Part shown: one piece after another, positions 11,653 to 15,535 of the stretch
How the letters are laid out: each line of letters starts with the position of its first letter
Position numbering within the stretch: position 1 is the first letter of the stretch
Assembly: GCA_938015655.1 (NCBI GenBank)
Contig: CALLPP010000050.1
Location: forward strand, 1-34,326
Origin: an uncultured Algisphaera sp.
Lineage (GTDB): Bacteria > Planctomycetota > Phycisphaerae > Phycisphaerales > Phycisphaeraceae
Direction of reading: 5' to 3'
Length of the DNA: 34,326 bases
Translations under genes and position numbers: made by a program
The notes under the pieces: generated by a model
Told to the model about the DNA's origin: nothing
The model's database searches: none
Seen by the model: the letters and a program-made list of their open reading frames with translations, nothing else

Positions 11653-12174
11653 ATGTGCGCAACGCCCCGCCGCTGGTGGAACGGGTGGATCGCAGGCGCG
11701 GGCGCCGGCGGGATCTTCGTCGCCGGGTTTTTCCTGGTGATGGATGCTCTGTCCGATGGCCGCCGCCCGGCCCCGCCCACGGATCCGTGGCCACCGGGTC
11801 CGATCCACCCCGTCTCGGTCTACCGCCTACTCGGATCGCCCGACGAACTAGACGGCCACCGGGTCCGAATCATCGCCTATTTCGTGCGAGAATTTGAAGG
11901 CACGGGACTTTTCGCAACATCTGAAGACGCCGACCGAGGGATTGCCGCGAACGGGATCGCCCTTGGTAGTTTTCGCCGCACCCTAAACGGCGGCCAACGC
12001 GACCACGACGTGCCCGATCGTGGTTACGTCATCGCCAAGGGGCGCTTCACCGCCGGGCCCGGAGGCCACCGGGGCATGTGGAGCGGCACCCTCGAAGACA
12101 TCAACCGTTTCGCCTCATGGGGATGGCCTCCTCAGCAAGCCACCGCCCCAGACCACCCCGCCAACATTGACTGA
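11653..12174 (+). CDS. Small membrane-anchored protein, possible OB-fold domain, function unknown
   Basis: 173 residues. One N-terminal hydrophobic segment (about 12-32, GWIAGAGAGGIFVAGFFLVM) is followed by a Pro-rich linker and a soluble domain. The soluble part reads YRLLGSPDELDGHRVRIIAYFV, then FEGTGLFATSEDADRG, IALGSF and GYVIAKGRF. This pattern ('lL..P..ldG..V.i.Gy...e.eg..Ly.s.eda') is seen in bacterial hypothetical proteins with OB-like beta barrels. I recognise the pattern, not a named family. Start 3 nt after the GT2 stop; the end overlaps the proposed TTG start of the next gene by 8 nt, so all three are likely co-translated. Confidence 0.65.
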   Translation: MCATPRRWWNGWIAGAGAGGIFVAGFFLVMDALSDGRRPAPPTDPWPPGPIHPVSVYRLLGSPDELDGHRVRIIAYFVREFEGTGLFATSEDADRGIAANGIALGSFRRTLNGGQRDHDVPDRGYVIAKGRFTAGPGGHRGMWSGTLEDINRFASWGWPPQQATAPDHPANID

Positions 12175-13507
12175 GTCGACCTCCCCCGAGACCGATGTTA
12201 CCGCCAGCACGGACCGATACCGCTGCACCCCGGCCATACCTAAGTGGCCCGCGCTCGCCGCGGGCCGCGCGGTCTGGACCGGCCACCAACCGCGCTTCTG
12301 GCACCCGGGCATCCTCGCCAAGTACCTCGCCGCTGATCAGGCCCTGACCGCCGCCGGCGACCGCGACACCCCGCTACACCACCTAGTCGTCGATCAGGAC
12401 GTGCAAAACCCCCTGGCCCTCGACGTGCCCACCCTGCAGGCCGACGCCCTGGGCTTCGGCCGAGTGCGTCTGGGCCCGGTCCGCGTCGATGTGCCCACCG
12501 GCCGCCAACCCGCGGTCGCTGCCGCACTGCCCCCCCTGCCCCCGGGCACCGATCCGCGTGCGGCCCGCGGCCTGCAGCTCATCACCCACGCCCTGCAACG
12601 CCACGCCGATCAGCCCACCCTTGCCTGGCAGGTCACCCACGCGCTGCACGAGCTACTTACCCCGCACCTGGGCCGCAAACTCCGCGCCCACCCCGCCACC
12701 GATTTTGCGCAAGCCCCGTGGTTCAACGACGAAATTGACCGCTTGCTGCACGACGCAGAACGCTGCGTAGCGTTCTACAACCACGCCGTCGCGCAGCATC
12801 CCGACGCCGGCATCGCGCCCCTCCGGCGCGAGCCCTTCCGGGTCGAACTGCCCCTGTGGCACCTGTCCTGGAACGCGCCGCGGCAGCGGGTCTATGCCGA
12901 CCTGGCCGACACCCGGCCTCTGCTCACCGTTGAGGACGGCACCCCGATCTCAGACGCGCAACAACTGGCCCCGCGCGCGCTCATGATGACCGCGTGGCTC
13001 CGCCGCCCCGGCGGCATTCACCCCGAATGCGGACTGTTTGTTCACGGCACCGGCGGGGGGCGCTACGAGCGCATCACCGACGCCTGGTGGACCACCTGGC
13101 GGGGCGAATCCCTCACCCCCATCGCCGTGGCCACCGCCGACCAGCGTCTGCGTTTCGACGCCCCGGTGCACACGTCCACAGACCATCAGCGTGCCGTCTG
13201 GTTTGCCCACCATCTGCCGCACAACCCCGAAGGGGCCCTGGCCCTCCACCCGCCCGCGGCCGACACACGGGCACAAGCACTGATTCAAGAGAAGAACGCC
13301 TTGCTCGCGTCGATGCACCAAGACCGCCACAAACCACGTCGTCGCAAGGCGTTTCACCGCATCAAGCAGATCAATAAAACGCTCTGCGCCCAGGCCCCAC
13401 AGGCCTTACAAAACGCGCAGGCTCACGTCGATCGCACCCGGCAGGGACTGGTTAACGCCACCGTCGCGGGGCGGCGCAACTGGCCGTTTGTCTACCACAC
13501 CGCCTGA
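12167..13507 (+). CDS. Uncharacterised protein with weak BshC-like resemblance
   Basis: About 446 residues if the TTG at 12167 is the start. The track start (12020) would overlap the previous gene by 155 nt, and no ATG or GTG lies between the TTG and the conserved-looking region. Near the N-terminus WTGHQPRFWHPGILAKYLAA then HHLVVDQDVQNP resembles the 'TGQQ..lftGPLy.iYKa' and following 'DHD' segment of BshC, the putative cysteine-adding enzyme of bacillithiol synthesis. The C-terminal ~80 residues are charged and probably coiled-coil (ALIQEKNALLASMHQDRHK..), as in BshC. No bshA or bshB partner is visible in the window. The resemblance is by eye only, so the function should be treated as unknown. 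Confidence 0.6.
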   Translation: MTESTSPETDVTASTDRYRCTPAIPKWPALAAGRAVWTGHQPRFWHPGILAKYLAADQALTAAGDRDTPLHHLVVDQDVQNPLALDVPTLQADALGFGRVRLGPVRVDVPTGRQPAVAAALPPLPPGTDPRAARGLQLITHALQRHADQPTLAWQVTHALHELLTPHLGRKLRAHPATDFAQAPWFNDEIDRLLHDAERCVAFYNHAVAQHPDAGIAPLRREPFRVELPLWHLSWNAPRQRVYADLADTRPLLTVEDGTPISDAQQLAPRALMMTAWLRRPGGIHPECGLFVHGTGGGRYERITDAWWTTWRGESLTPIAVATADQRLRFDAPVHTSTDHQRAVWFAHHLPHNPEGALALHPPAADTRAQALIQEKNALLASMHQDRHKPRRRKAFHRIKQINKTLCAQAPQALQNAQAHVDRTRQGLVNATVAGRRNWPFVYHTA

Positions 13508-13684: not shown

Positions 13685-14686
13685 ATGTCCCTATCTTTTA
13701 CTCACCGCCTGGCCTCACCTTGCGACGTACCCGCGTCTACGCGCGAGGCCCTCAAAGCCCAACAAGCAAGCGGACCCGATGCAACTCCGCGCTGCGAACG
13801 GTGCGGCTGGCGCACCACCCTCGACCACGTCCCCCTGTTCCACTATTGCTTCTGTCCCCGCTGCGGCCAGGGCTTCGCCGCAACGCAAGGTGAAGGCCGC
13901 TACCGTTTCGAAGGCGTACTAAGCGACGGCCCGGACACCCGCCTGTTCCTGGCCACCGACACGCGGCTGGACCGCGCCGTCAGCGTGCTTTACTACAAGC
14001 CCTCGGAGCCAGGCGCCCCCCAGTTGGCTGTTCCGCCGGACCTGCGGGCCAAGCACGAGGCGCTCACCCTGGCCAAGCTCGTACACCCCGGCATCGCTCG
14101 CATCCACCTCATCGAAGAAGCCCAGTGCCGACCAGCCCTGGTCGTCGAGTCGCTGCTGGGCACCCTAGCCCAACCCATCGCTTTCGGCATGACCGCCCAC
14201 ATTCAAGCAGCCCTCACCCTGCTCTGGCGCCTGGCCGACGCGCTACGTTTCGCCGCCGAATCCGGCCACTGCCACCACCGTTTGTTACCTGATCACATCG
14301 GTCTGACCCCCGACCACCAGCCCAAGCTGCTGGGTTTTGGCCACCAGCGCCCCGCTAATTTTATGCCCGGCCTGCGCCCGGTCGAGGCGGCATTCCTAGC
14401 TCCCGAAATCCGCGTCCTTCACCCCGACGCCGACGAACGAGCAGACATCTTTAGTCTCGGGATCCTCGCCTACGCCATCCTTGCCGGCCGCTACCCCGTG
14501 GTGCCACGGCGGCGTGGATCCGTGTCCCCGATCACCAAGTTTCGTCCCGACGTTCCCCCCGCGTTTGCCGCATTGCTACGCTCGATGATCTCCCACCAGG
14601 CCGCTGACCGACCTGCGGGTTACGCCGAGCTTCTGCAACAACTGCAAGCCATCAGCCCCGCGCCGCTGGTCAACGCGGCGGCTTAG
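13685..14686 (+). CDS. Zinc-ribbon pseudokinase (Ser/Thr kinase fold, catalytic residues lost)
   Basis: 333 residues. An N-terminal zinc ribbon (CERC at 37-40, CPRC at 57-60) precedes a protein-kinase-like domain (about 72-325). Fold landmarks survive: a beta-hairpin RYRFEGVLSDGPDTRLFLATD in place of the Gly loop, AVSVLYYKP at the usual Lys strand, AFLAPEIR (the APE motif) and ADIFSLGILAYAILAGRYP (helix F). The catalytic motifs do not: HRDLKPEN is replaced by HHRLLPDH (197-204), so the catalytic Asp, Lys and Asn become Arg, Leu and His, and DFG is GFG (217-219). It is therefore predicted to be inactive as a phosphotransferase and to act as a scaffold or sensor. No membrane segment. It lies 177 bp after the BshC-like gene on the same strand. 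Confidence 0.82.
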   Translation: MSLSFTHRLASPCDVPASTREALKAQQASGPDATPRCERCGWRTTLDHVPLFHYCFCPRCGQGFAATQGEGRYRFEGVLSDGPDTRLFLATDTRLDRAVSVLYYKPSEPGAPQLAVPPDLRAKHEALTLAKLVHPGIARIHLIEEAQCRPALVVESLLGTLAQPIAFGMTAHIQAALTLLWRLADALRFAAESGHCHHRLLPDHIGLTPDHQPKLLGFGHQRPANFMPGLRPVEAAFLAPEIRVLHPDADERADIFSLGILAYAILAGRYPVVPRRRGSVSPITKFRPDVPPAFAALLRSMISHQAADRPAGYAELLQQLQAISPAPLVNAAA

Positions 14687-14703
14687 AGCACCGCGGCCGC
14701 ACA

Positions 14704-15535
14704 CTACCTCCTGGTCACCGCGGGGCCCGCGGGCAGGACCGGCACCCAGTCCGCGGGTAGCTGAGCCTTCAGCCGGTCGCGGAAGTTCTCAAGCATCTGG
14801 GCGTGCGCCGCATCGGTGGCAAGGCTGGCCCACTCCTACGGATCGCGGCGGTGGTCGTAAAGCTCCTCACCCTCGTCGCGATAGCAGATATAGCGAAGTT
14901 CCCGGGCGCGCAGCCACCAGTTGCGTTGGTCCGGTCGTTTTTTTCACCCGCCCTCGGAATACAAAAAACTCAGCGAAGCGTCCGGGCCGTCCCAGGCTCC
15001 GCCCTCCGGGTCTTCGAGTAGCAGCACAAAAGTAAAACCACCCAACGGCAGGCCCGCATCGGTCCGCCAGGTACCGCCTTCCAGCCCGCACCAATCGACC
15101 AGCCTCGCGAACAGGTCGAGCGGCGACACCGGCGCCCGAGCCACCGACCCGCCGGGGGTCACCCCGGGCGCCCGCACCACCAGCGGCACCCGCGTGCGCT
15201 CCTCCCACAAGATCAGTTTGTTAAAGATGCTACTTCTCGCCCAGGTGCAGCCATGGTCGCGGGCAAACACCACCACCGTATCGTCGCGGTAGGGGCGGCG
15301 CTCCAAGGCATCCAAGACCTGCTCCACGTTTTCGTTCATGGCAGCCACACTGGCCAAGTAGGCATAAACGAACCGCTTCAACCCCTCACCGAGCGTGGGG
15401 TACGACTTCGCCAGATAGTCGTAATAAAACTTGTACCGGCGCTTGCCCAACGGAAAAACCGTCGGGCAGCCCGTGTTATTCATGTCGTCGAACCAAAATC
15501 AAAAACACGTTGGGGCCTCGCCCGCAGCGGCGGCA
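14704..15535 (-). pseudogene. Decayed sulfatase (alkaline phosphatase superfamily)
   Basis: Remnant of a type I (iduronate-2-sulfatase-like) sulfatase. The upstream piece GPNVFLILV should continue into DDMNNTGCP but is out of frame by a small indel near 15485-15490. The ORF 14944-15483 then jumps straight to the C-terminal half (KFYYDYLAKSYPTLGEGLKR.., FARDHGCTWARSSIFNKLILWEE, TRVPLVVRAPGV). The central segment with the CxPSR site that becomes formylglycine is therefore missing. After 14944 the frame shifts again into RARELRYICYRDEGEELYDH and RRDP, then hits an in-frame TAG (14842-14844) before EWASL. Several independent lesions including an internal deletion show it is non-functional. It lies about 100 bp downstream of the polysaccharide cluster. 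Confidence 0.82.

Follow-up and report, generated by a model that had tools for sequence, protein, structure and literature searches.

The window, a 34,326-nucleotide stretch of DNA from an uncultured Algisphaera sp., encodes what by sequence appears to be a Hanks-type kinase that is soluble, fused to a ribbon, and catalytically inactive (Table 1). On balance, we read it as a pseudokinase of a zinc-ribbon family that would be inactive by the Hanks mechanism and would work as a protein-binding module through its small lobe. Bacterial pseudokinases have been little studied, and a 2025 review of their families makes no mention of planctomycetes or zinc modules (PMC12599244). The protein is a further bacterial pseudokinase, interesting but not extraordinary.

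Table 1. Positions of the pseudokinase gene and of its features in the window.
Feature	Residues	Position	Strand	Basis or comparison
Ribbon-fused pseudokinase gene, 333 residues		13685..14686	+	ATG-start open reading frame; Pfam, PknA, AlphaFold2, dN/dS
Predicted C4 zinc ribbon CERCGWRTTLDHVPLFHYCFCPRC	37-60	13793..13864	+	CxxC-x16-CxxC spacing as in the ortholog and 29 kinases of the order
Kinase-like domain	71-320	13895..14644	+	Pfam, PknA alignment, AlphaFold2, structure search
Degraded Gly-rich loop LSDGPDTRL	79-87	13919..13945	+	IATGGMGQV in PknA; LDDGPDTRL in the ortholog
β3 VSVL for VAVK	99-102	13979..13990	+	Lys to Leu (L102); VSVL in the ortholog
Invariant small-lobe stretch (αC, β4, β5, hinge)	121-166	14045..14182	+	46/46 identical in the ortholog; contains Glu125
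Catalytic loop HHRLLPDH for HRDxKPxN	197-204	14273..14296	+	HHHLLPDR in the ortholog
GFG for DFG	217-219	14333..14341	+	Metal-binding Asp to Gly (G217); GFG in the ortholog
Retained APE (E241)	239-241	14399..14407	+	Alignments
Retained helix-F Asp254 (ADIFSLG)	254	14444..14446	+	Alignments

Overall Fold and Domain Architecture

An initial annotation of this DNA had proposed a soluble protein that keeps the kinase fold, encoded by an open reading frame on the forward strand, and each of these points is upheld. The reading frame starts with ATG and runs for 333 codons, and its product matches the Pfam Pkinase family at an E value of 7e-8, over the Pfam cut-off, and Mycobacterium tuberculosis PknA at 3e-18 across residues 70-307 (HMMER). 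An AlphaFold2 model, calculated from 25 rows comprising the window protein, its ortholog, and 23 kinases from viral contigs, has a mean pLDDT of 79 and a pTM of 0.78, with the kinase domain mostly near or above 90 and residues 268-291, the expected site of helix G, of low confidence in part; with the two orthologs as the only input, the pLDDT was 36. The model adopts the bilobal kinase fold, and a Foldseek search of the PDB places PknA and PknB nearest to it (E about 1e-15, probability 1.00, TM 0.66-0.78 depending on the target). A hydropathy scan reveals no transmembrane helix, the best 19-residue value being 1.64, within helix F. Assignments to the NCBIfam families MAD6 and PknB_PASTA were rejected because the matches fall far below the cut-offs of those families.

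Catalytic Motifs Lost and Retained

The register of the motifs was taken from three separate alignments, an HMMER alignment with PknA and two independent multiple alignments. As the initial annotation had stated, HRDLKPEN has become HHRLLPDH and DFG has become GFG, with loss of the catalytic Asp, the Asn, and the metal-binding Asp, and this is found in all three alignments. The segment HHRLLPDH aligns on HRDVKPGN, such that the catalytic-loop Lys is gone as well, and no plausible register in the three alignments restores an Asp at the HRD or the DFG position. Two more losses had been overlooked: the β3 Lys and most of the Gly-rich loop, in which G82 alone is left of the three consensus glycines. 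One multiple alignment opens a gap between VSV and LYYK, and only through that gap does Lys105 reach the β3 Lys column. The three residues expected of an active Hanks kinase, the β3 Lys, the HRD Asp, and the DFG Asp, are thus L102, R199, and G217; absence of any one of them defines a pseudokinase (PMC12599244), and here all three are absent. The former Asp and Asn positions of the catalytic loop are basic in both orthologs yet differ between them, R199 and H204 in the window protein corresponding to His and Arg.

The claim that every alignable catalytic motif is altered stands for the catalytic loop and DFG and is slightly too strong for the domain as a whole, given that αC Glu125, the APE motif, and Asp254 are kept; His197 and Phe218 are also retained. 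By alignment, residues L129, L142, H197, F218, and D254 would form an intact regulatory spine, and in the catalytic spine the catalytic-loop Leu that faces adenine would be replaced by Gly206. Intact HRD and DFG motifs in orthologs, or functional residues elsewhere in the domain, had been named as observations that would overturn the assignment; the ortholog has the same losses. From these residues, we infer a lack of catalysis, and phosphotransfer by the protein is very unlikely.

The Zinc Ribbon and Related Ribbon-Kinases

N-terminal to the kinase domain, residues C37-x2-C40-x16-C57-x2-C60 constitute a CxxC...CxxC ribbon, which the initial annotation had correctly described as fused to the kinase. 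The spacing is conserved in the ortholog, and the four conserved cysteines presumably bind zinc. A further 29 Phycisphaerales kinases have exactly this spacing, directly ahead of the kinase domain. The fusion had been taken as a hint of the role of the inactive protein, and it turns out not to be peculiar to this protein, being probably inherited from active ribbon-kinases.

The pseudokinase probably arose within a family of active ribbon-kinases and lost its catalytic activity, because the relatives with the exact ribbon spacing nearly all retain the Lys, Asp, and Asn and the DFG motif in alignment. These kinases (e.g., L005, L006, and L009) share the ribbon spacing and the ribbon-then-kinase order at about 22-33% identity and, unlike the window protein, nearly all have VAxK, HxDVKPxN, and DFG. 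Many of them carry long parts fused at the C terminus; the window protein stands alone. In a phylogenetic tree, the stem of the pseudokinase pair is very long (2.82 changes per column versus a tip median of 0.44), and its exact placement was left open; a grouping of the pair and the ribbon-kinases as a single clade could not be rejected (p-AU 0.33, with the long stem). The shared ribbon with its exact spacing is a better argument than the tree for a probable common origin. Set against the many ribbon-kinases of the same architecture that appear active, the inactive protein makes a clean pair for study.

Ribbon-kinases occur in many copies in family f6 of the order (genomes G063, G075, G059, and G071; loci L005-L010 and L033-L051), with more than 20 kinase matches in G063, and range from stand-alone forms of 300 residues to open frames of at least 1,500 residues. 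Two of the ribbon-kinases are themselves partly degraded, each on its own. Row L039b (L039, 5387-6301, reverse strand) lacks the β3 Lys and the αC Glu, with VVVQ, FIQQ, and HGDVNTQN, and L051 (2354-3115, forward strand) is partly degraded, with HRDVIPGN and DLS. Their degradation suggests that activity may have been lost repeatedly in the family.

Distribution and Selection

The sole ortholog, 72% identical, is found in a metagenome-assembled genome of Phycisphaera sp. (G001, JALZVY010000035.1), where gene order is identical over about 19 kb. All motif losses are shared by this syntenic ortholog; hence, sequencing error and recent decay are both excluded as their source. The pseudokinase is absent from the third member of the genus (G002, 99% completeness) and was not found in the remainder of 400 genomes of the order or in 397 sampled genomes of the class. 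In a kinome comparison of the three genus genomes, the remaining typical Hanks kinases all retain the Lys and both Asp residues; the count for the window genome, 78% complete, is a lower bound. Loss of catalysis in the ribbon-kinase family can thus be recent and limited to one genus. The third-position GC of the gene (0.745, versus 0.79-0.94 in its neighbors) is suggestive at most of horizontal arrival.

Comparison of the window gene with its ortholog over 327 codons gives dN 0.217, dS 0.907, and dN/dS 0.24, which falls inside the range of seven neighboring genes (0.07-0.31). Purifying selection acts on the pseudokinase and is most intense in the small lobe (β3, αC, β4, β5, and the hinge). Residues 97-166 of this lobe are identical at 65 of 70 positions (dN 0.041, dS 0.73); dN is 0.25 in the large lobe (residues 167-333; dS 0.93) and 0.40 in the N-terminal 70 residues. 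For the 46 consecutive identical residues, permutation gives a p of 2e-4, and 15 of the 46 codons carry silent changes, synonymous change being somewhat lower there.

In active-kinase orthologous pairs of the same genus, identity from the catalytic loop to APE is 0.76-0.94 and never well below that of the small lobe, whereas in the pseudokinase pair it is 0.75 versus 0.93. The small lobe of the active kinases is commonly well conserved too (0.69-0.93), and most of the contrast comes from the relaxed catalytic segment. The pattern, drawn from this one orthologous pair, appears to be that of a catalytic site released and a small lobe still held.

Comparison with Known Kinases and Pseudokinases

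PknB, which together with PknA is the best match to the window protein among solved structures by both sequence and fold, packs back to back in one of its crystal forms, through an interface proposed to be allosteric (PMC6333020). Unlike the window protein, PknA and PknB are active transmembrane kinases without a ribbon. In an ungapped comparison by hand, which we treat as a lead only, we take L33 and V74 of PknB to correspond to L95 and I140 of the window protein, hydrophobic in both orthologs, and D76 to correspond to L142, which could not form the classical salt bridge.

Among bacterial pseudokinases, MviN (ActPs3) dimerizes back to back, and the constraints of its family fall on this N-lobe interface (PMC12599244). 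It is like the window protein in having lost all three motifs and in the concentration of constraint in the N-lobe (PMC12599244). ActPs3 is, however, actinobacterial and lacks a ribbon, and its VALT, Lsidhpsr, and Y-- motifs (DFG missing) and membrane anchor contrast with VSVL, HHRLLPDH, GFG, and no transmembrane helix in the window protein. The DLHK and CP1 pseudokinases are soluble, as the window protein is predicted to be, and one DLHK example resembles it in having AVLT and GFG (PMC12599244 Table 1). DLHK, frequently a fusion with a helicase or nuclease, retains the HRD Asp, and CP1 is fused to COG3899, whereas the window protein has Arg199 and stands alone at 333 residues. The human pseudokinase VRK3 combines a degraded catalytic site with a conserved surface and retained regulatory-spine residues, an inverted pattern of conservation (PMC4718504). 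The window protein shares this inversion and the spine; VRK3 differs in being eukaryotic, in having the β3 Lys-Glu pair, and in lacking a ribbon.

Proposed Function and Alternatives

In the mechanism proposed here, the ancestor would be a Phycisphaerales zinc-ribbon Hanks kinase, with the losses confined to one lineage of one genus. Phosphate transfer by the Hanks mechanism would cease with the loss of the Lys that anchors ATP, the catalytic Asp, the Asn and Asp that bind metal, and the greater part of the Gly loop. The fold, the ribbon, and the regulatory-spine residues have been kept, and the protein is under purifying selection. The small lobe would offer a fixed surface to a partner protein, perhaps one of the cell's own active Hanks kinases, which could be engaged via the αC/β4 face through which Hanks kinases and MviN dimerize back to back, and the ribbon would supply a second contact. 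Both the role of the surface and the kind of partner are what we infer. The sharply bounded conserved surface would predict the partner-binding site. The best fit is a role in protein binding or allostery exerted through the small lobe, with VRK3 and MviN as possible analogs, and the scaffold role suggested by the initial annotation agrees with a small lobe that is held and a catalytic segment that is relaxed. That the protein is, more specifically, a genus-specific descendant of active zinc-ribbon kinases and an allosteric partner in trans of one of its own cell's active Hanks kinases, acting like STRAD or HER3 through a frozen αC/β4/hinge face with the ribbon as a targeting arm, we regard as distinctly unlikely.

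The invariant hinge and αC could equally be explained by a retained ligand pocket. The ligand-sensor role that was also suggested initially has gained no positive evidence and is possible, if unlikely: the pseudo-active site would bind a nucleotide or other anion without metal, and binding would switch the conformation. Full invariance of the hinge and β5, a small gatekeeper (Val154, by alignment), and the basic residues at the two altered catalytic-loop positions are in keeping with such a pocket, and DLHK pseudokinases have been proposed to bind ATP through arginines (PMC12599244). Evidence against it comes from the missing β3 Lys, the disrupted Gly loop, and, by alignment, a Gly (Gly206) at the catalytic-spine position that faces adenine, as well as from D81, D84, and T85 within the Gly loop, which is much like that of VRK3, a non-binder (PMC4718504). 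A kinase fold repurposed for another reaction, as in SelO (AMPylation) and SidJ (glutamylation), would also account for a kept fold under purifying selection and could draw on the few polar residues near the site (E125, H197, and D203). In SelO and SidJ, however, a DFG-type Asp is still present along with the β3 Lys (PMC12599244 Table 1), both being missing in the window protein, and the catalytic segment is the relaxed part, making a new enzymatic activity very doubtful.

Confinement to two genomes and the long stem branch are what might be expected of a decaying gene heading for a pseudogene. Decay is contradicted by the selection test, which shows purifying selection (dN/dS as above), and with reading frames intact in both genomes at a dS of about 0.9, identical motif losses, conserved synteny, and an unchanged stretch of small lobe, we hold it to be highly improbable. 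It is barely credible that the protein is an active kinase whose catalytic residues have migrated, as in WNK, and are hidden by the alignments. Lys105 does lie three residues from the lost β3 Lys, and Asp203 follows the Pro and precedes the former Asn, but neither ortholog has an Asp at the HRD or DFG position in any of the three alignments, and nearly all relatives have their catalytic residues at the normal places. 

Genomic Surroundings

The pseudokinase gene is located at the junction of two blocks. Upstream lie rsmA, a family-2 glycosyltransferase gene, and a conserved gene at 12020-13507 (forward strand), a block that is kept across the family without the pseudokinase. Downstream, on the opposite strand, is a set of the surface-polysaccharide type (a sugar transferase, a glycosyltransferase, an AMP-binding enzyme, and a short-chain dehydrogenase). 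The junction may suggest a link to envelope sugars, and the placement is not evidence of one. A defense role was rejected, as the PADLOC matches (PD-T4-6, MkoA, and MAD6) hit the generic kinase domain and no defense neighbor was seen. Between the pseudokinase and the downstream set, at 14690-15483 on the reverse strand, is the remnant of a sulfatase gene (Pfam Sulfatase, E 5e-16), in which only the C-terminal part is left, with in-frame stops and the N-terminal half missing. The remnant is absent at the matching site in the relative, where the pseudokinase adjoins the sugar transferase.

No neighboring gene is specific to the pseudokinase. The adjacent gene at 12020-13507, whose product the initial annotation had linked to the pseudokinase as an uncharacterized enzyme, is separated from it by 177 bases and is present in 85 of 101 relatives, at about one copy per genome and almost always without this pseudokinase. 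Being nearly order-wide, it is rejected as a dedicated partner, and that link is unsupported. In the relatives it stays beside rsmA and the glycosyltransferase gene. The protein family that it encodes, placed at 12203-13504 of the forward strand, matched nothing in Pfam or the PDB, even when searched with a profile of 23 rows, and a BshC-like ligase, suspected from GHQ...HPGILAK, found nothing in support. The product carries the strongly conserved series GHQ...HPGILAK...VDQD...HGTGGG...HHLPHN and, as a conserved order-wide protein, perhaps deserves separate study.
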